Part shown: in pieces, positions 1,444 through 27,186 of the stretch
How positions within the stretch are numbered: position 1 is the first letter of the stretch
Layout of the letters: each line of letters begins with the position of its first letter
Assembly (NCBI RefSeq): GCF_001458775.1
Contig: NZ_CZPZ01000023.1
Coordinates: 186,001-250,000 of the forward strand
Source of the DNA: Candidatus Nitrospira nitrificans
GTDB taxonomy: Bacteria; Nitrospirota; Nitrospiria; Nitrospirales; Nitrospiraceae
Length of the DNA: 64,000 nucleotides
Reading direction: 5' to 3'
Made by a program: the position numbers and the translations under genes
The notes under the pieces: generated by a model
The model's database searches: none
Told to the model about the DNA's origin: nothing
The model's input: only the letters and a program-made list of their open reading frames with translations

Positions 1444-2343
1444 CTAACTCAGCAACTCCTGCCTGGCGCTCCGGACGAGAGCAAGGACGGCCGGGTGCTT
1501 CAGCCGTCGTTCCACCGTGATCGCATAGAAATGTTGCTTGAGGTTATCCAATTGTCCGACCACCTGCACTCGGTATTGGCGGCAGATCTCCTTTTCGATC
1601 ACGGACACCCCGGGGAAGATCCCATAGCCGTCCTGGCCAAAGGCCTTGAGAGTCGCGCTGTCGTCGAACTCGCCCACGATGTTCGGGCGCAGCCCGTGGT
1701 TGACCAGCCATTGGTCGACCAGCCGCCGAAGCACGGCATTGGATGTCGGGAGGAGCAGAGGCGCGCCGGTCAATGATTGCGGAAACCCCCGACGATACTG
1801 CGTGGCCAATTTCGACGTGGCAAACAACGTCACGCCCGATTCGCCCAAGGGATGACTGTAGGTGTGTTCCTTGACGCTCGAGGGGGTTGGTGTGTCGGCG
1901 ATCACCAGATCCGATCGATGGGCCATCAGATCCGTCAAGAGTTGGCGAAATTTGTCTTCTTGGCAGATCAGGCGAGTCGGCCGATACAATTTCAGAGCCG
2001 ACTTGAGGAGTTGGGTGGCCAGCGGTTTCGGGACGGCGTCCGAGATGCCCACGACCAGTCGGGCAGGATGCCCGTTTGCCTGGCCTTTGACCGTGTTCAT
2101 GAGCTCTTGACCGGTCGAAAAGATGTCTTCGGCGTATTTGAACACCAATTGTCCCATCTCCGTCAATGCGAGCCGTCGCCCTGTTCGGATGAACAACTTC
2201 TCGCCCAAGGTATTTTCCAACTGACCGATTTGTCCGCTGATCGTGGGTTGAGCCAAGCGGAGTTCTTCGCACGCTTTCGTCATGGTGCCGTGCTTGGCGA
2301 CGGACCAGAAATACAAGAGATGATGATAGTTCAACCAATCCAT
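1444..2343 (-). CDS. nhaR: LysR-family transcriptional regulator, NhaR-like
   Basis: A 299-residue DNA-binding regulator with the N-terminal winged helix of LysR proteins (residues 1-60, NYHHLLYFWSVAKHGTMTKACEEL and a TISGQIGQLE recognition helix), then a periplasmic-binding-fold effector domain. The first 60 residues match the NhaR subgroup, which in E. coli answers to sodium and activates nhaA and the pga exopolysaccharide operon. It is divergent from the three-TolC export cluster with about 143 bp between start codons, the usual arrangement for a LysR protein and its target, so I infer that it controls that cluster. An NhaD antiporter lies 18 kb away and could be a second target. The inducer cannot be read from sequence. 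Confidence 0.85.
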   Translation of the reverse strand: MDWLNYHHLLYFWSVAKHGTMTKACEELRLAQPTISGQIGQLENTLGEKLFIRTGRRLALTEMGQLVFKYAEDIFSTGQELMNTVKGQANGHPARLVVGISDAVPKPLATQLLKSALKLYRPTRLICQEDKFRQLLTDLMAHRSDLVIADTPTPSSVKEHTYSHPLGESGVTLFATSKLATQYRRGFPQSLTGAPLLLPTSNAVLRRLVDQWLVNHGLRPNIVGEFDDSATLKAFGQDGYGIFPGVSVIEKEICRQYRVQVVGQLDNLKQHFYAITVERRLKHPAVLALVRSARQELLS

Positions 2344-2401: not shown

Positions 2402-2486
2402 ATCCGCTTTATCTATTTTTAAAAAAGAAGGGGAGGTTGCTAGTGTTGGCGCCGTCCGCCGAATGTATACGAGAGGAGCATCCTTC

Positions 2487-4103
2487 ATGATCGCTCTGGT
2501 ATTGGCCCTTGTGACTCTCCTGCCAATGACCGCACTGGCGGAACCGATTCAGGATTCCAGTTCATTGAAAGCGCAGTCGACTCGCACCGCTCCACTGACC
2601 ATCGGTGAAGTGCTGGCCAGAATCGAGTTAACCCACCCCCTGCTTCAGGCGACCGGAGCCGAGCGAACCAAGGCTCGGGCGAAAATCCTAAAGGCGCTCG
2701 GGGCCTGGGAACCGCAGTTCAAGAACAATGTGGAGGCCCAGCGGTATGAAACCTGGAATCTCACCACGGCTCCCACCCCCGGCTTGAACTTTTCCCCCTG
2801 TGAATCAGATCGAAGTACAGCGACTCGTCCTTGCAACGGCATACAGCCACAGGTATTGACGGGGGGCTATAACGATACCAAGCTCGATGTCGGGCATCCT
2901 TGGGGCTTCCGGGTCCAAGCCGGGCTCCGTAACGGCTTTGGGGATCGCAGCAACCAAATTATTGCTGTTATCCCGGATATGCAGGCCTTCTATCGGCAGC
3001 AGCAAATCATCCTCAGTGGGTCGTTTCAGTTGCTGCGCGGCCTGATGATCAACGAAGAGTATGCCGCGTATCAACAGGCCGAACTTTCGGGGCCGCAGGC
3101 GGAGATCAAAGTGGCGCAGAAACGGCAGGATCTCTATCTCGCCGGGGCCGTGCAGTACTGGGATTGGCAGATCGCCGTCAAACAGGCCGAGGTGGTGAGG
3201 CGCGCCCTGGCCGTGGCCGAAGACCGCCTGGTCCAGGTCGAAGGGCTCGCCAAGGGTGGAAGAGTCTCGCCGCTCGATGTCGTCGAGGTGAACCAAGAGG
3301 TGCAGAAGCGGCGAGCGGCGGCGATCGCCGCGCAACGGAAGGTGGAGTATGAGCAGTATAAACTGTCCCTCTTTCTCTGGGAGAAGAACGAGCCGGTAAC
3401 CCCGCGACCGGAATGGGCGCCGGAGTTCCAGGGCGAAACGCCGCTCCCGACCGAAGACGAGGTTACGGCTTATAAAGTGGAGGCGAAAGAAGATCGACCG
3501 GAAGTGCGGGACCTCTACATCGAAGCCAAGATGAACAATGTCGATCTCAAGCTCGCCAAGAACAAACTGCTCCCGTCGTTGTCTCTTGAGGGAGGGCCGA
3601 CCCCCGGCGCCGTGGATTGGATTGTGGGAATCGGCTACCGGACCGGAGTGCACTTCGAGATGCCGCTGTTCCAGCGGGAAGGGCGGGGGAAGGTCATGGC
3701 CGCGGAAGTGGTCCAGCAACAATTGGCGTTGAAACAACAATATACCGAGCAGCAAGTCAGCCTCGACGTGGATAACTGGCTCTCGGCGATCGTACGGGCC
3801 CGAGACCGAGTGACGGCGGCGACGGAAGCGCTGCGGCTGGCCAAGACATTGGAAGAAGGCGAGCGGACCCGGTTCAATATGGGGGCGACCACTGTGCTGT
3901 TCGTCAATCTCCGGGAGCGCAACGTGGTGGAATCGGCGTATCAGCTGTATCGGGCCCAGGCCGACTACGCCGTGGCGCGTGGAGGGATGCTGTGGGCCAG
4001 GGGCCTCTTGTCGAAGCCCTGGCCGACTGAATCAGTGACGAAGTATGGAGATCCGCTGACGGCGGCCGGTGCCTATGGGTTTCAAGGACCGGGCCGCGAT
4101 TAA
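2487..4103 (+). CDS. TolC-like outer membrane efflux protein, paralogue 1 of 3
   Basis: Predicted outer-membrane channel of a tripartite exporter. I chose ATG 2487 because GAGAGGAG (2471-2478) lies eight bases before it and the protein then starts with a clean signal peptide (MIALVLALVTLLPMTALA). The mature part has the long alpha-helical, coiled-coil-rich layout of the outer membrane efflux protein family, with repeated segments such as PLTIGEVLARIELTHPLL near the start and RARDRVTAATEALRLAKTLEEGE near residue 440. At 538 residues it is somewhat longer than E. coli TolC. It opens a co-directional run of five genes: three related channels, an ABC protein and an HlyD protein. The next channel gene starts 24 bp after its stop codon. 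Confidence 0.85.
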   Translation: MIALVLALVTLLPMTALAEPIQDSSSLKAQSTRTAPLTIGEVLARIELTHPLLQATGAERTKARAKILKALGAWEPQFKNNVEAQRYETWNLTTAPTPGLNFSPCESDRSTATRPCNGIQPQVLTGGYNDTKLDVGHPWGFRVQAGLRNGFGDRSNQIIAVIPDMQAFYRQQQIILSGSFQLLRGLMINEEYAAYQQAELSGPQAEIKVAQKRQDLYLAGAVQYWDWQIAVKQAEVVRRALAVAEDRLVQVEGLAKGGRVSPLDVVEVNQEVQKRRAAAIAAQRKVEYEQYKLSLFLWEKNEPVTPRPEWAPEFQGETPLPTEDEVTAYKVEAKEDRPEVRDLYIEAKMNNVDLKLAKNKLLPSLSLEGGPTPGAVDWIVGIGYRTGVHFEMPLFQREGRGKVMAAEVVQQQLALKQQYTEQQVSLDVDNWLSAIVRARDRVTAATEALRLAKTLEEGERTRFNMGATTVLFVNLRERNVVESAYQLYRAQADYAVARGGMLWARGLLSKPWPTESVTKYGDPLTAAGAYGFQGPGRD

Positions 4104-4127
4104 TCCGGGCATAAGGAGCATGCTTCG

Positions 4128-5705
4128 ATGGCCTTGTTAGTACTCGCGATTCTGCTCTTACTTCCTGTGACGACCGTGGCTGAACCGGTGCACGATTCCA
4201 GCGCATTGAAGGCGCAGTCTGTCCGCACCGAGCCTCTGTCCATCAGCGAAGTGCTCGCCCGTATTGAGCTGACCCATCCCCTCCTCCGGGCCCAGGGCGT
4301 CGAGCGGATCCAGGCCAGGGCGAAGATTCTGAAGGCGCTCGGGGCCTGGGAACCGACGTTCAAGAATATTACGCAGGTGGCTCGTATTCAAATTTGGAAC
4401 TTCCTGTATAACCCCGATGTGGGGACGGGGGGGTTTAACGACAGCAAGCTCGAGGTCGGGCATCCCTGGGGCTTCCGGGTCCTGGGAGGAATCCGTAACG
4501 GCTTTGGGGATCTCCCCATTACCGGGACGCCTGGCATCAGTGGTTTGGCAGCAGGGACAGTCGCGGTCATCCCCGATGTAAAGCTCTTCTATCCGCAGCA
4601 GCAAATGATCTTCGGCGGGTCGTTTCCTCTGCTGCGCGGCCTCATGGTCAACGATGAGTACGCCGATTTTCAAAAGGCCGAACTCGCGGGGCCGCAAGCG
4701 GAGATCGCGGTGGCGCAGAAACGGCAAGATCTCTATCTCGCCGGGGCCGTCCAATATTGGGATTGGCAGGTGGCTGTGAAGCAGGCAGAAGTGCAAAAAC
4801 GGACATTGGCCGTCGCGGAAGAACGCCTCACTCAGGTGCAAGGACTCGCCAAGGGCGGGAAGGTCGCGCCTCTTGATGTGATCGAGGTGAATCAAGAGGT
4901 TCAGACCAGACGAGAGGCGGCGATCGCTGCGCAACGGCAGGTGGAGTATGAGCAGTATAAGCTGTCCCTCTTTCTTTGGGAGAACGGCGAGCCTGTGACC
5001 CCACGCCCGGAATGGGCGCCGGAGTTCCAGGGTGAGACACCCTTGCCGACTGAACAAGAAATCGCGGCCTATAAAGTGGAGGCGAAAGAGGATCGGCCGG
5101 AAGTACGGGACCTCTATATTGAAGCCAAGATGAACAATATCGACATCAAGCTGGCCAAGAACAAACTGCTCCCGAAGTTGAATTTTGACGGGGGACGAAT
5201 GGATGCTCCCGCGGATTGGATTGTGGGTGTGGGGTATAGATATGGAATGCAGTTTGAGATGTCCTTGTTCCAGCGGGAAGCGCGTGGGAAAGTCCTGTAC
5301 GCGGAGGCGGACCAGCAACAATTGGCCTTCAAGCAGCTGTACACCGAGCAACAAGTCAGCATCGACGTGGATAACTGGCTCTCGGCGATCGTGCGGGCCC
5401 GAGACCGGGTGAAGGCGGCGACGGAAGCGTTGCGGTTGGCCAAGACGTTGGAAGAAGGTGAGCGGACCAGATTCAATATGGGGGCGACCACCGTCCTGTT
5501 CGTCAACATCCGGGAGCGCAACGTGGTGGCGTCAGCGTACGAATTGTATCGGGCCCAAGCCGACTACGCGGTGGCGCGTGGAGGGATGCTGTGGGCTAAG
5601 GGCGCCCTGTCGAAGCCGTGGCCCGAAAGCGAGCTGGCCAAGTACGGGAATCCCCTGAGCGCGGCTGGTGCGTACGGCTCCACTAAGCAACCTGGACGCG
5701 ATTAA
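4128..5705 (+). CDS. TolC-like outer membrane efflux protein, paralogue 2 of 3
   Basis: Second of three tandem channel genes, 525 residues, with signal peptide MALLVLAILLLLPVTTVA. AAGGAG precedes the ATG at good spacing; the same upstream motif (AAGGAGCAT) is repeated before the third copy, showing duplication of whole gene units including the ribosome binding site. Most of the sequence matches its neighbours, for example LSISEVLARIELTHPLL, EFQGETPLPTEQE and ARGGMLWAKGALSKPW. Differences cluster in the N-terminal third (residues 75-150), where the segments between conserved blocks vary in length. That part probably corresponds to the first beta-barrel and extracellular loop region. Exported cargo is unknown. 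Confidence 0.85.
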   Translation: MALLVLAILLLLPVTTVAEPVHDSSALKAQSVRTEPLSISEVLARIELTHPLLRAQGVERIQARAKILKALGAWEPTFKNITQVARIQIWNFLYNPDVGTGGFNDSKLEVGHPWGFRVLGGIRNGFGDLPITGTPGISGLAAGTVAVIPDVKLFYPQQQMIFGGSFPLLRGLMVNDEYADFQKAELAGPQAEIAVAQKRQDLYLAGAVQYWDWQVAVKQAEVQKRTLAVAEERLTQVQGLAKGGKVAPLDVIEVNQEVQTRREAAIAAQRQVEYEQYKLSLFLWENGEPVTPRPEWAPEFQGETPLPTEQEIAAYKVEAKEDRPEVRDLYIEAKMNNIDIKLAKNKLLPKLNFDGGRMDAPADWIVGVGYRYGMQFEMSLFQREARGKVLYAEADQQQLAFKQLYTEQQVSIDVDNWLSAIVRARDRVKAATEALRLAKTLEEGERTRFNMGATTVLFVNIRERNVVASAYELYRAQADYAVARGGMLWAKGALSKPWPESELAKYGNPLSAAGAYGSTKQPGRD

Positions 5706-5730
5706 TTCAGCAACAAAGGAGCATCCTTCC

Positions 5731-7326
5731 TTGATTCTTCTATTGTTGTTCTCGTTGATGATGGTGCCGGCGACCGTAATGGCAGAAACCCAGGCCGCGG
5801 CGAGTTCGTCACGCGCCGAATCGGTGCGCACCGCCCCCTTGACCATTGAAGAAGTGCTCGCCCGGATCGAACTGACCCATCCGCTGCTTCGGGCCACCGG
5901 ATTGGAACGCTCGCAGGCTCGGGCGAAAATTTTAAAAGCGTTGGCAGCGTGGGAGCCGAAGTTTCGGAACGAGGTCGAGGTTGATCGGTTTACAAACTTT
6001 AATCTGACAAACGTCGGCGGCGTGCCGAATACCCTGACTGGTGGCTATAGCGATTCCATGCTCAAGATCGGGCATCCCTGGGGCTTTGAGGTCTTTGGTG
6101 GCATCCGTAACGGCTTTGGCGATCACGCAACGATCGGTATGCAGCGCGGCCTCGGCCACGAAAGTTCCGCGGACTTTGGCCCGGTCGCCTTCCCTACGGA
6201 TATGACACTTTTCTATACGCAACAAATGGCCATCGTCGGCGGTTCGTTTAATCTGCTCCGAGGATTCATGGTCAACGAAGCAAATGCCGAGTTTCAGCAA
6301 GCAGAGCTCGCCGGGCCGCAAGCCGAGGTGAAGGTGGCTCAGAAACGGCAAGACCTTTATCTCGCCGGGGCCGTCCAATACTGGGACTGGCAGGTTGCCG
6401 TCAAGCAAGCCGATGTGGTGAAGCGTACGCTGGCCGTCGCGGAGGAGCGCTATCGCATGGTGGAGGGGAGATCCAAAGCCGGCGCGGTTGCTCCGATCGA
6501 CGTGGTGGAAGCCCGAGAAGAAGTTCAGCGGCGTCGAGAGGCGGCCATTTATGCGCAACGAAAGGTCGAGTATGAGCAATATAAGCTGGCGCTCTTTCTC
6601 TGGGAAAACGGCCAACCTGTAACACCTCGCCCTGAATGGGCCCCGGAATTCCAGGGGGAAACGCCGTTGCCGAGCGAAGAGGATGTGGCGGCCTTTAAGG
6701 TGGAAGCCACTGAGGATCGACCGGAAGTACGCGACCTCTACATTGAAGCCAGATTGAACAATATCGAACTGAAACTTGCGAAGAATAGCCTGCTTCCCAA
6801 GCTACAGGTTGAGGGAGGACCGGCGGTGGGCGGTATCTATTGGATCGGAGGATTCGGCTACCGGGTGGGGACTCTCTTCAGTATGCCGTTGTTCAATCGA
6901 GGCGCACGAGGGAAGGTCCTTCACGCGGAAGCGCAGCAGCAACGATTGGCGTATAAGCAGGCCTATACCGAAAAGCAGGTTGCGGTCGACGTTGATAACT
7001 GGCTCTCGGCCATCGTGCGGGCGCGAGATCGAGTGAAGGCCTCGACAGAGGCTCTGCGCTTGGCCAAGACTTTAGAAGAAGGCGAACGAGCCCGGTTTAA
7101 CATGGGAGCGACGAGTGTGCTCTTTGTCAACCTCCGAGAGCGCGCCGTGGTCGAAGCGGCCTATGAACTCTACCGGGCCCAAGCCGATTATGCGGTCTCT
7201 CGTGGGGGGATGTTATGGGCGAGAGGGGCGCTGTCGAAACCTGTTTCCGAACGTGTCTTAAGCAAGTATGGGGATCCCCTGCAGGCCGCCGGCTCGTCCG
7301 GCCACAAAGCGTCGGGACGTGATTAA
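5731..7326 (+). CDS. TolC-like outer membrane efflux protein, paralogue 3 of 3
   Basis: Third tandem channel gene. The start is best placed at TTG 5731: AAAGGAG (5715-5721) lies nine bases upstream, the spacing to the previous gene matches the other copies, and the protein then begins with a signal peptide (MILLLLFSLMMVPATVMA), giving 531 residues. It is the most diverged copy, with a longer insertion around residues 115-160 (mentioning a GLGHESSADFG stretch), but it keeps the shared blocks PLTIEEVLARIELTHPLL, EDRPEVRDLYIEA and LAKTLEEGERARFNMGAT. Gene order suggests that any of the three channels could pair with the HlyD adaptor downstream, or that they form mixed trimers; neither can be decided here. 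Confidence 0.85.
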   Translation: MILLLLFSLMMVPATVMAETQAAASSSRAESVRTAPLTIEEVLARIELTHPLLRATGLERSQARAKILKALAAWEPKFRNEVEVDRFTNFNLTNVGGVPNTLTGGYSDSMLKIGHPWGFEVFGGIRNGFGDHATIGMQRGLGHESSADFGPVAFPTDMTLFYTQQMAIVGGSFNLLRGFMVNEANAEFQQAELAGPQAEVKVAQKRQDLYLAGAVQYWDWQVAVKQADVVKRTLAVAEERYRMVEGRSKAGAVAPIDVVEAREEVQRRREAAIYAQRKVEYEQYKLALFLWENGQPVTPRPEWAPEFQGETPLPSEEDVAAFKVEATEDRPEVRDLYIEARLNNIELKLAKNSLLPKLQVEGGPAVGGIYWIGGFGYRVGTLFSMPLFNRGARGKVLHAEAQQQRLAYKQAYTEKQVAVDVDNWLSAIVRARDRVKASTEALRLAKTLEEGERARFNMGATSVLFVNLRERAVVEAAYELYRAQADYAVSRGGMLWARGALSKPVSERVLSKYGDPLQAAGSSGHKASGRD

Positions 7327-7454
7327 CGTTGGTGGGGCAGGATAGTTCATTCGGTGGATTGGCTCTCGAAACAGAAACATGGTTATGTAGACCCGTTATT
7401 TGAGTTCAGTAAGGGGCGGATCAATCACATTCTGAATTATTACTGGGGGTGGTC

Positions 7455-9131
7455 ATGAAAGAACCTCAGGGCGAAGGTTCCAAGGGCCTGTTCGAAGCAC
7501 TGATGAAGCAGTTGTCCGTGGCCATGCGGGCTGAGAAAAAAATCATGAGTTTGATTTTTTCTTACGCGCTGGCCGTCGGGTTCTTTTCTCTTATCATCCC
7601 ATTGACCGTACAGGAACTGGTCAGCACCTTTTCCTATGCGGTTCAGCCGGTCATGATCTGGACGTTGACCGGCATTATGCTGCTGGTGCTGTTGTTTGTC
7701 GGCCTCTTCAAGACATTCCATTTCTACGCGGTGGATGTCGTGCAACGCCGGATCTTTGCGCGAGTCACGGTTGCGATGGTTGAACAGCTTCCACGGAATC
7801 GTTTTAAAGGGGCGCGGCCGGAAATTGCGAATTACTTCATTGAAACGGTCTTCATGCAACGTGCCCTGTCCACGCTGCTGATCGATCTTATCAATGTCGT
7901 GGTGGGCGGTACGGTCGGTATGATCATGCTGGTGGTCTACCATCCCTATTTTCTCATGTACAACCTCCTGCTCATGGCGGGATTTGCGATCACGTTTTTC
8001 GTGCTCTCGCGTGGTGCCCTCCGGACGACTCTCGCCATGTCTCACGCGAAGTACGACGTCTTCAATTTCATTCAAGAGGTGTCGAAGAATGCCCTACAGC
8101 TGAAGGCCACTGACAGCCGCCCGTTTCTCATGAACAAAGCGAACGATCTCGTCGGTCGGTATGTGGAAACTCGGAAGGCGCGGTTCGCGGTTCTCGTGCG
8201 GCAATATTTGGGTTCAGTGGGCGGACAAGCTATCGCGCAAGCCGGTGCGCTGGGCATCGCAGCCTCGCTCATGGCGTCCGGGCAATTGACGCTGGGGCAG
8301 TTAGTCGCTGTTCAAGCGGTCGTGAGCGCGCTCGTCATCAATTTCGACTCCCTGATCAAGAACATGGGGGCTGTGTACTATTTCTTCGCGTCACTGACAC
8401 ACCTTGATGAGGTCTTCAGCCAGGAGCAAGATCACATCTCAACTGAATCAGTCGTGGCACTGCCGAAGCACTTGACTCAAGGTGTCCGGGTTACCTGCAA
8501 AGGTGTCAGTTTGGTTCACGGCGGGGTGTCCGTATTCGATGGTTTCAATCTGGATGTCGCGCCGGGCGAGAAGCTCGGCATCTACGCTCGGACAACGGCG
8601 GCCAAGACGGCCTTGGCCAGAGTGTTGGGTGGCCTCGAAGTTCCAACGAACGGCGTCGTTCAGTACAATGGGGTCGACCTCCGCTATATCGAAGGGGGTG
8701 CCATCAACCAGTGCCGCAGTGTCATGATCGACTCTCAGTTATCGTTGGTGAGGGGGACGATCGAAGAAAATATCGTCATGGGACGCTCCTACGTCACGTA
8801 TGACGATCTCAACTGGGCGCTCCGTTTCACTGAACTTGAAGAAGATGTCGAGGGGTTGCCACGCGGGGTCAAGTCCGATGTCTCTGCGCTGGGCGAATCT
8901 CTCTCGCCGACCCACATTGTGCAGATCCTCCTAGCCAGAGCCATCTTAGGACGTCCGCAAGTCCTTATATTTGATGGTCTCATTCACTCGCTCGAGCCGT
9001 CGTTGCGCGAGCGTATTCTGCGGCGGCTGTGCTCGAAGGACGAAGCATGGTCCGTGATTTTCGTCTCGACGGATCCCAATCTTACGGATCATGCGGATCG
9101 TCGTATCATGTTGCATCATGCCCATGCGTAA
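7455..9131 (+). CDS. ABC exporter (membrane plus nucleotide-binding domain) with degenerate ATPase motifs
   Basis: A 558-residue half-transporter in type I secretion layout: an N-terminal exporter membrane domain (about residues 25-310) fused to an ABC domain (about 340-558). There is no C39 peptidase domain. The ATPase motifs are badly altered: Walker A reads ARTTAAKT (lysine kept, both structural glycines replaced, about residue 381); the signature LSGGQ is replaced by SLSPTH before the normal helix ILLARAIL; Walker B is VLIFDG, so the catalytic glutamate is glycine; the H-loop histidine is missing (FVSTDPN); the Q-loop glutamine is not in place. The frame is intact and the protein keeps its fold hallmarks, so it is probably expressed but a poor or dead ATPase. 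A GTG six bases earlier is an alternative start. HlyD follows 45 bp later. Confidence 0.85.
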   Translation: MKEPQGEGSKGLFEALMKQLSVAMRAEKKIMSLIFSYALAVGFFSLIIPLTVQELVSTFSYAVQPVMIWTLTGIMLLVLLFVGLFKTFHFYAVDVVQRRIFARVTVAMVEQLPRNRFKGARPEIANYFIETVFMQRALSTLLIDLINVVVGGTVGMIMLVVYHPYFLMYNLLLMAGFAITFFVLSRGALRTTLAMSHAKYDVFNFIQEVSKNALQLKATDSRPFLMNKANDLVGRYVETRKARFAVLVRQYLGSVGGQAIAQAGALGIAASLMASGQLTLGQLVAVQAVVSALVINFDSLIKNMGAVYYFFASLTHLDEVFSQEQDHISTESVVALPKHLTQGVRVTCKGVSLVHGGVSVFDGFNLDVAPGEKLGIYARTTAAKTALARVLGGLEVPTNGVVQYNGVDLRYIEGGAINQCRSVMIDSQLSLVRGTIEENIVMGRSYVTYDDLNWALRFTELEEDVEGLPRGVKSDVSALGESLSPTHIVQILLARAILGRPQVLIFDGLIHSLEPSLRERILRRLCSKDEAWSVIFVSTDPNLTDHADRRIMLHHAHA

Positions 9132-9176
9132 GCGATTGGAATGGAAAATCAACACCGGTAAATTAATGGAGGCTCC

Positions 9177-10622
9177 ATGGCTAGCCTAGGTCGCGGTCTC
9201 GAAAACAGTGGCGAACGTGCGCTGGTCCGGCGGGGGGTCGGCTTAGAGGCGATCACCATCGAACAGGGACCGGCATTGGGCAAGTTACCATGCTGGGAGG
9301 CGGTACAGATTCCCGGCGGAATGTTTACGGCTTCTCGTGCGATTCTGACGATTCTGTTGCTCTTTCTGATCGTCCTCGAATTCGTGCCCTGGACACAAAC
9401 TATTCAGGCATCCGGGAAAGTGTCGGCGTACACGCCTTATGACCGTCCCCAGCAGATTGAGTCTCGGATTACAGGCCGTGTCAAGGCCTGGCATATTTAC
9501 GAAGGAGTCAAAGTCAAAAAGGGCGAGCTTGTCGGCGAATTAGAAGATTACGATCCGACCTTTATGGCCCCCGAAATTCTCCCCCTCTTCGAACAACGTA
9601 AGGTAGCCTTGGAGCAAACGCGTCAGGCAGCCCTGGCCAGAGCCGACCAGCTGAATAAAAGAATAGGGGAGATGAAAAAATTAGTGCAGGCAGCCGTGCC
9701 CTCGGCGGAGGCTCGTGTGGTGGAGGCAGACAATAAGGTGCGCGAGGCTCAACAGAAGGTTGAGCAGTATAAGATTGACGTGCACACGGCTCAACTCAAT
9801 GTCGACCGTCATCGACAACTTGTCCGGGACGGACTGGTTTCACAGCGGGAACTCGAGCTCACGATCCAGACTGAAATCGGCACCAAGGCCGGTCTGCAGG
9901 CGGCACAGGCCAGTTTGTCGGCTGCCGAGCAGTCTCGGTCAGCCTTGAGCTTCGGTCGTGATCAAATCACTGCGGATGTACAACAACGCCTCATGGATGC
10001 AATCGCCTCTCGGGATTCTGCAGTGGCGGAGGCGGCCAAGGCTACGGAGCAATTAGCGGATATCTCCTACCGACAACAGGGAGTCCAGCAACGTATTGAG
10101 GCTGCAAAGCTGTTTGCACCGATGGACGGCACGGTCGTCAAGATGGCAAAAGTCGGTATCAATGAGACGGTCAAGCAGGGAGAAAACCTGGTCACTATTT
10201 CTCCATTAGCATCTGATCCGGCCATCGAAATGACGGCGGAAGGATTGGATTCTCCGCTTTTGAAGCCTGGGCGAAAGGTTCGAATCCTCTTTTTCGGAGT
10301 CCCGGCCATCCCATTGCCGGCTTGGCCTGGGTTGATGGCAGGCACACGTGGGGGCGTGATCAAGGTCGTTGACCAGATTGACGATGGAAAAGGCAACTAC
10401 CGGTTCTGGGTCGTTCCTGATCCAGAAGACCCTCAGCCATGGCCTGAACAGACACAGGTGCGGCAGGGTACAAAAGTGTTGGGCTGGGTGATCATGAATC
10501 GTGTTCCTCTGTGGTATGAATTGTGGCGGCGCTTTAACTTCTTCCCGCCGGACTATTTGGAGCGCGAGCCCAGTGTGTTTGAAATGTTCGCACCCAAAGT
10601 AGCAGCACCGGGCGGTAAGTAG
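9177..10622 (+). CDS. HlyD/MFP-family periplasmic adaptor
   Basis: A membrane-fusion protein that would link the inner-membrane ABC subunit to a TolC-type channel. The 481 residues show one N-terminal membrane segment (about 52-72, RAILTILLLFLIVLEFV), a lipoyl/barrel-sandwich half (QIESRITGRVKAWHIYEGVKVKKGELVGELED), a long coiled-coil hairpin (about 140-305), the second sandwich half (LFAPMDGTVVKMAKVGINETVKQGENLVTI) and a beta-barrel C-terminal part. GGAGG lies five bases before the ATG. The C-terminal tail (ELWRRFNFFPPDYLE) is longer than in simple RND adaptors and resembles NHLM- or HlyD-type exporters. It closes the export cluster, with two hairpins just downstream. Confidence 0.9.
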   Translation: MASLGRGLENSGERALVRRGVGLEAITIEQGPALGKLPCWEAVQIPGGMFTASRAILTILLLFLIVLEFVPWTQTIQASGKVSAYTPYDRPQQIESRITGRVKAWHIYEGVKVKKGELVGELEDYDPTFMAPEILPLFEQRKVALEQTRQAALARADQLNKRIGEMKKLVQAAVPSAEARVVEADNKVREAQQKVEQYKIDVHTAQLNVDRHRQLVRDGLVSQRELELTIQTEIGTKAGLQAAQASLSAAEQSRSALSFGRDQITADVQQRLMDAIASRDSAVAEAAKATEQLADISYRQQGVQQRIEAAKLFAPMDGTVVKMAKVGINETVKQGENLVTISPLASDPAIEMTAEGLDSPLLKPGRKVRILFFGVPAIPLPAWPGLMAGTRGGVIKVVDQIDDGKGNYRFWVVPDPEDPQPWPEQTQVRQGTKVLGWVIMNRVPLWYELWRRFNFFPPDYLEREPSVFEMFAPKVAAPGGK

Positions 10623-25431: not shown

Positions 25432-27186
25432 TCAGGCGGTCGGTTCGTTCAAGCGGATGGTATAGAGGTAGTGGTACAGACCCTTACGGGCGAGAAGCTC
25501 TGCGTGCGTGCCTTCCTCGACCAATTTCCCCTTATCCAAGACTAGAATTCGGTCGGCGCGCTGAATGGTCGACAGTCGATGGGCGACGACGAAGGTCGTG
25601 CGACCTTCCATGAGGCGCTGAAGGGCTTCCTGCACCAGCCGCTCCGATTCGGTATCCAGCGCTGAGGTCGCTTCGTCCAGCAATAAAATGCGGGGATTCT
25701 TCAAGATCGCCCGAGCGATCGCAATACGTTGGCGTTGTCCGCCCGAGAGGTTGACTCCTTTCTCGCCGACCAGGGTGTGGTATCTGTCCGGCAAGCTCGT
25801 GATGAAGTCATGAGCATGCGCGGCCTTGCTCGCCTCCAATACCGCGGCTTCGTCCGCTTCCCTCTTTCCGTAGCGAATGTTGTCGAGAATGGTTCCTCCA
25901 AAAAGAATGGTTTCCTGTGGAACCAGCGCAATCTGGCGGTACCAACTTTCAAGGGTCACGTCCCGCAGATCTTTGCCGTCGATAGTGAGGCGCCCTTCTA
26001 TGGGATCGTAGAACCGGTGCAGCAGGTTGATGACCGTGGTTTTCCCGGCGCCGGTTGGGCCGACGAAGGCGACCAATTCTCCCGGCTTGGCTTCGAACGA
26101 CAGATCCAATAACACTGGGTGTTGAAGGTCGTAACCGAAGCTGATCCTCTCGACCAGGACGTGCCCTTGGACTGTGGCGAGACTTTGTGCCTTGGGTGAG
26201 TCTGCAATTTCCGGTTGTGCATCCAGAATTTCAAAGACTCGTTGCAGGGCTCCCTGCGCCTCTTTGAGCTGCGTAAAGATGCGGGCTCCTGAACTGAAGG
26301 GGCCGATGAGAATGCCGGCAAAGAGGACGAAGGCGAACAGCTCCCCTGGCGTGACCGTCCCTTCGATGACCTGTCGACCGCCGTACCAGAGCACCGCCGC
26401 TGCAGAGGAGAACGTGACCAGGCTGATCACGGGAATGAACACGGCCATGATGCCTGCCCGGTGCAGTGTGAGACGAAGCGTCTCGTTCACCTGGGTGGCG
26501 AAGCGAGTTTCTTCCCGCGGTATCTGCACGAAGGATTTGACGATTCGAATGCCGGAAATCACTTCCTCGACGAGAGTGCTGAGCGCAGCTGTGTGGTCTT
26601 GAATCGAGGTCGACAGGGACTTCAGTCTGCGACCGAATACCTTGGCGACCAGGACCAGCAACGGGAGCAGAATCAGGATCAGGAGGCAGAGGCGCCAATT
26701 CATCATCAGGAGAAATGTCATGCCGCCGATGAAGGTCACGAGTTGCTTGACCGTGTCGATCGGGGTTTCCGTGACGATGGATTGAATGACCGCGACGTCG
26801 TTCATCACTCGCGACAGCAACTCCCCGGTGCGACGCCGGGCGAAAAAACTGACTGTCAACGTCTGCAGGTGGCCGAAGAGATGTTTGCGAAAGTCGGCGA
26901 CAATGTGTTGAGAAACCCACGCCGTCAGGTAGCTGTGGCCCATCGAGCAGAGCCCCTGCAGAATCACCAGGCTCAGGAACAGGCCGATCGACCAAGTCAT
27001 TTGGTCGGCATCGTGCTGAACGGTAATGACATCCCAGAGGCTGCCGGCCAACCGAACCAAGGCAAGATTAATGAGCGCAACCCCGCTCACTAAGAGCCCG
27101 GCCAGCATCAGCCGTGTCACATACGGGCGTACGAACGGCAGGAATCGCTTGAAGATCGACATCGTGGTCAGGCGGCGCGTCGGCAC
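25432..27186 (-). CDS. ABC exporter, MsbA-like (lipid A/lipid flippase type)
   Basis: A 584-residue homodimer-type half-transporter with six predicted membrane segments (about residues 20-310) and a fully canonical ATPase: Walker A GPTGAGKTT, signature LSGGQRQRIA, Walker B ILLLDEATSALD and H-loop VAHRLSTI. This is the normal counterpart of the degenerate ABC protein at 7455. The closest familiar family is MsbA/multidrug exporters, so lipid A core flipping is a reasonable guess but not proven; no kdsB or lpxK gene is next to it. Start at GTG 27186 (GAGGG nine bases before); ATG 27162 is an alternative. Confidence 0.85.
   Translation of the reverse strand: MPTRRLTTMSIFKRFLPFVRPYVTRLMLAGLLVSGVALINLALVRLAGSLWDVITVQHDADQMTWSIGLFLSLVILQGLCSMGHSYLTAWVSQHIVADFRKHLFGHLQTLTVSFFARRRTGELLSRVMNDVAVIQSIVTETPIDTVKQLVTFIGGMTFLLMMNWRLCLLILILLPLLVLVAKVFGRRLKSLSTSIQDHTAALSTLVEEVISGIRIVKSFVQIPREETRFATQVNETLRLTLHRAGIMAVFIPVISLVTFSSAAAVLWYGGRQVIEGTVTPGELFAFVLFAGILIGPFSSGARIFTQLKEAQGALQRVFEILDAQPEIADSPKAQSLATVQGHVLVERISFGYDLQHPVLLDLSFEAKPGELVAFVGPTGAGKTTVINLLHRFYDPIEGRLTIDGKDLRDVTLESWYRQIALVPQETILFGGTILDNIRYGKREADEAAVLEASKAAHAHDFITSLPDRYHTLVGEKGVNLSGGQRQRIAIARAILKNPRILLLDEATSALDTESERLVQEALQRLMEGRTTFVVAHRLSTIQRADRILVLDKGKLVEEGTHAELLARKGLYHYLYTIRLNEPTA

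Follow-up and report, generated by a model that had tools for sequence, protein, structure and literature searches.

A degenerate ABC exporter subunit encoded with HlyD and TolC genes in Candidatus Nitrospira nitrificans, candidate core of an ATP-independent exporter

The window analyzed here is a stretch of 64,000 nucleotides of Candidatus Nitrospira nitrificans (contig NZ_CZPZ01000023.1, positions 186,001 to 250,000). It encodes an ABC exporter subunit of 558 amino acids that is almost certainly non-catalytic. This subunit belongs to a widespread family in which the ATPase domain (NBD) has been deleted twice independently. Together with an HlyD adaptor and TolC channels, it may form a tripartite exporter that does not use ATP hydrolysis by its own ABC subunit and is most likely driven by an ion gradient through charges of the membrane domain (TMD). 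Judging from the sequences, we give this reading an even chance of being right.

A conserved pseudo-ATPase in an HlyD-TolC operon

The gene belongs to an operon of the order TolC-TolC-TolC-ABC-HlyD that spans 2463-10622, with a LysR-family gene divergent from it (Table 1). Its reading frame is unbroken from the ATG at 7455 (a GTG lies at 7449) to the stop at 9129-9131, as a first-pass annotation made from the window alone had reported. Orthologues of the ABC gene in other Nitrospira occupy the same site, between rluB-like and purEK genes. The LysR gene adjoins the operon in most of them, as well as in Nitrospirales loci whose exporter has no NBD (L112, 12857-13777; L113, 207-1106), and its product is the probable regulator of the operon. 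This protein may resemble NhaR, which would hint at an ionic or pH signal. In paralogous Nitrospirales clades the dead ABC gene mostly stands with HlyD and TolC genes in a different order, and in Bacteroidota and Novosphingobium the order is ABC-HlyD-TolC. HlyD and TolC genes adjoin the family member in nearly all loci read; at a few clade C loci the neighbors were not recognized as either. The window genome holds no second family member, the next-best matches being ordinary exporters with about 23-24% identity.

The three tandem TolC paralogues (2463-7326) are 68-76% identical, and each has its own orthologues in other Nitrospira species, so that the three have been kept apart for a long time. 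TolC is normally a homotrimer, and a hetero-trimeric channel built from the three paralogues is a candidate arrangement worth testing.

Table 1. Coordinates in the window of the exporter operon and of the features of its ABC subunit.
Feature	Position	Strand	Remarks
LysR-family regulator gene	1444..2343	-	divergent from operon
TolC-family outer-membrane protein, paralogue T1	2463..4103	+	
TolC-family outer-membrane protein, paralogue T2	4128..5705	+	
TolC-family outer-membrane protein, paralogue T3	5668..7326	+	
Pseudo-ATPase ABC exporter subunit, 558 aa	7455..9131	+	TMD residues 1-342, degenerate NBD 343-558
Six-helix type IV exporter membrane domain	7455..8480	+	portion kept by NBD-less relatives
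Presumed coupling helix 2 region, residues 209-224	8079..8126	+	present here; collapsed in both NBD-less lineages
TM6 stretch with family-specific acidic positions 287 and 298	8313..8348	+	287 Gln, 298 Asp here
Degenerate NBD, under purifying selection	8481..9128	+	dN/dS ~0.05
Degenerate Walker A, ARTTAAKT	8586..8609	+	motif comparison
Degenerate signature, LSPTH	8901..8915	+	motif comparison
Walker B Asp then fixed Gly, DG..H motif, residues 507-511	8973..8987	+	invariant in 41/41 Nitrospirales NBDs
H-loop replaced by STDP	9066..9077	+	Asp-Pro fixed, 40/40
HlyD-family periplasmic adaptor	9177..10622	+	profile match, neighborhood

Hardly any element of the ATPase motor is left in the NBD. Lys-Thr is the sole remnant of the Walker A motif, the Gln of the Q-loop region (IDSQLSL) is shifted, the signature is degenerate, and the Walker B (IFDG) retains its Asp (8973-8975) with a Gly in place of the Glu. 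The H-loop has no His, and the A-loop aromatic residue and the D-loop are also altered. The exporter at 25432-27186 of the same window (L006) carries canonical motifs (GPTGAGKT, LSGGQ, LLDEATSALD, AHR). The first-pass annotation had already pointed to the loss of nearly all ATPase motifs and to that exporter as a canonical reference, and both statements held when the Walker A, signature, Walker B Glu, H-loop His and Q-loop were rechecked. The loss is not a matter of chance resemblance, because the Pfam model ABC_tran still matches the NBD (1.3e-8), an AF2 model adopts the ABC-exporter fold, and all Nitrospirales orthologues examined have lost the same motifs. The AF2 model, built with 28 sequences, is of moderate confidence (pLDDT 72, pTM 0.43); among its top PDB matches in Foldseek, at TM-scores of 0.83-0.86, were PCAT1 (8vox), TmrAB (6rai) and the HlyB of an HlyB-HlyD complex (8dck).

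To follow the conservation of these losses, an alignment thinned of near-copies supplied 41 distinct Nitrospirales NBD sequences. The Walker A pattern, the signature, the catalytic Glu and the H-loop His were each found in 0/41, and the Walker A glycines were absent from all. The Walker B Asp is retained in 41/41 and the Walker A Lys in 27/41, the Lys being missing in the 14 others and in all four Sphingomonadales sequences. The replacement residues are themselves fixed: Asp507-Gly508 and His511 in 41/41, Asp540-Pro541 in 40/40. The sequence DG..H (residues 507-511) stands in these NBDs for the catalytic end of Walker B, in a role that may be structural or concern ligand binding. Among Nitrospira orthologues the NBD has a median dN/dS of 0.049 and the TMD one of 0.105 (Nei-Gojobori, some dS values being high). 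The protein is therefore maintained, with its dead domain under selection, and since the NBD is more conserved than the TMD, it must do something. These results support the earlier proposal of a functional, non-hydrolysing subunit as opposed to a pseudogene. An alignment of homologues had been suggested to see whether the loss is conserved, which it is, and two observations named as telling against the proposal, canonical motifs in close relatives and a dN/dS near 1, were not made.

Family distribution and loss of the NBD

A search with the window protein gave matches at E <= 1e-25 in 167 of 236 Nitrospirales genomes. When the query was a Bacteroidota member, about 60 of the 248 Bacteroidota genomes sampled yielded strong matches (better than ~1e-70), and two genomes had strong matches in a 289-genome sample of the class of Ciceribacter. 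Sphingomonadales are also among the hosts, the family being carried on Novosphingobium plasmids. The subunit is thus no oddity of one genome. The family is wide and includes intermediate grades, which a view limited to the window does not reveal.

Four grades can be distinguished. In canonical exporters subjected to the same analysis, the Walker A motif was present in 27/27, the signature in 26/27, the Glu in 25/27 and the His in 26/27. Class I, near-canonical, comprises 14 Bacteroidota proteins, mostly of 700-840 aa, with Walker A in 14/14, Glu in 13/14, His in 11/14 and an eroded signature. Class II covers most of the 50 other Bacteroidota proteins, of which 46 retain Walker A, 5 the Glu and none the His. 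In class III (Nitrospirales and Sphingomonadales, including the window protein) every catalytic motif is lost, and in class IV the NBD is absent altogether. Most class I members (L210-L222) have an N-terminal extension of roughly 180-200 aa before the membrane domain, which had no Pfam match in the one checked (L210); the class II member L079 also has an N-terminal extension. An 832-aa ORF (L241) and a 978-aa frame (L235) were rejected as cases of extra domains, being reading-frame artefacts or upstream read-through.

TMD-only members, of about 333-346 aa, are known from three Nitrospirales species and two Bacteroidota, so that the evidence from NBD-less forms comes from five genomes. In three species of one Nitrospirales genus (L112, L113, L227), HlyD and TolC genes accompany a protein of 337-346 aa that ends after TM6, and an unrelated gene comes next. 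In the two Bacteroidota (L208, L209), a TMD of about 333 aa is directly followed by HlyD and TolC, and its stop lies at most a few tens of bases from the start of the HlyD frame. The DNA downstream of the TMD-only genes showed no NBD remnant, and a lone family-type NBD gene was not found in their genomes, where the best NBD matches lie within full-length exporters. A frameshift or assembly artefact was set aside, as the three Nitrospirales species and the two Bacteroidota agree, with clean stops and no remnant downstream; two TMD-only ORFs of another genome (L238 and L239 in G110) proved to be contig ends and were excluded. In a tree built from TMD columns only, canonical exporters included, the family forms one clade against the canonical exporters and the TMD-only members fall in two separate lineages. 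A single origin of these members was rejected (AU p = 5e-6). The NBD has been lost twice independently within the family. At two of the NBD-less Nitrospirales loci (L112, ~5254-8210; L113, 5504-11731), the exporter genes adjoin genes resembling DabB/DabA of inorganic-carbon uptake, identified by eye, the DabA-like gene being read in L113.

Coupling helix 2, TM6 acids and the source of energy

Coupling helix 2 docks an NBD. We take it to be residues 209-224, from the position of the motif and what is known of type IV exporters. In the five TMD-only sequences, identity to sister proteins over this element is 0.14 in one NBD-less lineage and 0.16 in the other, compared with 0.58 and 0.57 of the sisters to one another. 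The TM core of the same two lineages is better preserved (0.75 compared with 0.74, and 0.46 compared with 0.62), and coupling helix 1 is little changed. Few as the five sequences are, the same element has collapsed in both lineages.

The membrane domain also carries charges of its own. Of 69 family rows, 64 have an acid at TM6 position 287 and 64 at position 298; none of 13 canonical exporters has either, and all five TMD-only members retain both. Position 287 is Glu in most of the family and Gln in the clade of the window protein; position 298, Asp in the window protein, is Ala in Sphingomonadales. Other near-universal charges of the family (an acid at 94, Lys at 199, bases at 240 and 243) are not found in canonical exporters. 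Bilayer depths of the charged positions were taken from helix prediction and are provisional. The TM6 acids occur in the near-canonical class I as well and therefore did not arise with the loss of the NBD. They could be ancestral residues of the cavity, there for ion coupling or to accommodate a cationic substrate, whose presence rendered the NBD dispensable. As a sign of proton coupling, their conservation is suggestive only.

Since the ATP motor is dead here and deleted in some relatives, the system probably runs on something other than ATP. In the mechanism that we propose, the dead ABC subunit would be the inner-membrane transporter of a complex with the HlyD adaptor and TolC channels. Its NBD would have become a conserved pseudo-ATPase that remains attached to the membrane domain, probably as a clamp for dimerization or gating. 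Export would draw on a non-ATP source. The likeliest is an ion gradient, as for SbmA, coupled through the conserved membrane-domain charges, including the acidic positions of TM6. The outward direction would follow from the association with HlyD and TolC, and transport itself is inferred. The chances for and against an ion-gradient drive appear to us balanced. Carrying the TMD-only evidence over to the window protein assumes a shared mechanism.

The first-pass annotation had offered three options for such a subunit: a scaffold, a partner of another ATPase, or a transporter driven by another energy source. The last is the one that we favor, given that two lineages have lost both the NBD and coupling helix 2, and the other two appear less favorable. 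A dead ABC dimer could organize the HlyD ring and TolC, or form a channel, either passive or regulated; the pseudo-NBD would then serve as the platform for dimerization. The HlyB-HlyD assembly of E. coli contains three HlyB dimers and six HlyD (PMC11026475), so that dimers of an ABC protein may serve a structural purpose; HlyB of such a complex is among the top fold matches, and the pseudo-NBD is strongly conserved. However, no second inner-membrane transporter was recognized in the operons read, the membrane core with its buried charges is kept better than a mere anchor needs, and two lineages dispense with the platform. A scaffold or gate is thus rather unlikely.

The subunit could otherwise be one component of a heteromeric exporter that draws its power in trans from an ATPase or ABC exporter whose gene lies at another site in the genome. 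There are well-known heterodimeric exporters in which one site is degenerate (PMC7756269), canonical exporters are present in the host genomes, and the window protein, like other full-length members, retains coupling helix 2. But the search for a second ABC subunit, proposed by the first-pass annotation, was negative at the level of the operon: no second ABC exporter gene, and hence no linked partner with a canonical site, was found in the operons read in Nitrospirales, Bacteroidota and Sphingomonadales. Also, the subunit has lost all of its motifs and not just those of one site. An NBD supplied in trans would be expected to leave the coupling helices in place, and is hard to reconcile with two lineages that lost their NBD together with coupling helix 2, the element that would receive it. 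We consider power in trans unlikely, and for the window exporter itself independence of any ATPase in trans is fairly probable.

Binding of ATP without hydrolysis might gate the full-length forms, which would act as nucleotide-regulated exporters or valves. The invariant Walker B Asp, the Walker A Lys kept in 27/41 Nitrospirales NBDs and the full Walker A of 46/50 Bacteroidota members outside class I would fit such a role, which is nevertheless quite improbable, with the Walker A glycines gone in all Nitrospirales sequences and the Lys missing from 14/41 of them and from each of the four Sphingomonadales. A decaying pseudogene or annotation artefact, for which nothing speaks except the degenerate motifs themselves, can be dismissed in view of a frame intact in dozens of species, the dN/dS of 0.05, the fixed replacement residues and the conserved operon.

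Comparison with known systems

By homology, with a six-TM fold and an ABC domain supported by the ABC_tran and fold matches, the window protein is a type IV ABC exporter, and it has the type I secretion gene neighborhood of an HlyD adaptor and a TolC channel. None of the four motifs expected for ATP hydrolysis is found in the 41 Nitrospirales sequences, and the type I secretion models TIGR03375, TIGR01846 and TIGR01842 gave 101, 84 and 83 bits against cut-offs of 693, 726 and 510. No curated family covers the protein, NCBIfam scores lying far under every cut-off, and the Nitrospirales TMD-only proteins had no Pfam family above cut-off and no NCBIfam match. Some genes of the family are named ABC transporter ATP-binding protein and would be counted as ATP-driven type I secretion despite a dead ATPase, which is a hazard for annotation. 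No description of such a family was found in the open-licence papers searched. A paper on F. johnsoniae efflux concerns another operon (PMC10197871), and the SecA-linked type I secretion module of Nitrospirae is a separate system with no ABC homologue (PMC4452313).

The type I exporters HlyB, LssB and PrtD and the PCAT/NHLM exporters provide the best profile and fold matches and share the ABC-HlyD-TolC gene set. Unlike them, the window protein has no motor motifs and no N-terminal C39 or C39-like domain, and no linked substrate gene was recognized near its operon. TM287/288, TmrAB, TAP and CFTR also have catalytic residues replaced within a retained fold, but they keep one canonical site, whereas here every motif is lost and no canonical partner is linked.

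SbmA is a proton-driven peptide transporter with a ladder of protonatable glutamates, thought to derive from an ABC protein by loss of its NBDs and coupling helices (PMC13316013). Like SbmA/BacA (SLiPT), the TMD-only members are ABC membrane domains that have lost their NBD; the coupling helices are lost in SbmA and helix 2 has collapsed in the TMD-only members, which, in contrast to SbmA, keep coupling helix 1 little changed. Neither these five members nor the window TMD match SbmA_BacA in Pfam at E <= 1, and the SLiPT definition (no NBD, no coupling helices) does not describe the window protein, which retains its NBD and coupling helix 2. The family differs also in its intermediate grades, with an NBD lost twice within it, and in adjoining HlyD-TolC, unlike SbmA/BacA; its members therefore probably export. 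Passage of an ABC membrane domain to secondary transport is known from SbmA; to our knowledge, a tripartite HlyD-TolC version with living intermediates is new.

The debate on an ATP-free function of ABC exporter membrane domains has largely turned on truncated LmrA and MsbA, of which the NBD-less membrane domains show proton-coupled transport (PMC4979069). The family presented here resembles them in consisting, in some members, of a membrane domain alone. However, those proteins are laboratory truncations, whereas truncation in this family is natural and has occurred at least twice with intermediates preserved. Natural homologues that range from near-canonical to NBD-less can thus be used to test how primary transport turns into secondary transport. 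The family may show a pump caught changing its energy source. Tentatively, and with slightly less than even confidence, we suggest that a natural HlyD-TolC tripartite exporter family has moved from ATP to an ion gradient, leaving living intermediates and two independent losses of the ATPase domain. This would add to SbmA another way in which an ABC pump became a secondary transporter, and the first such case in a tripartite machine.
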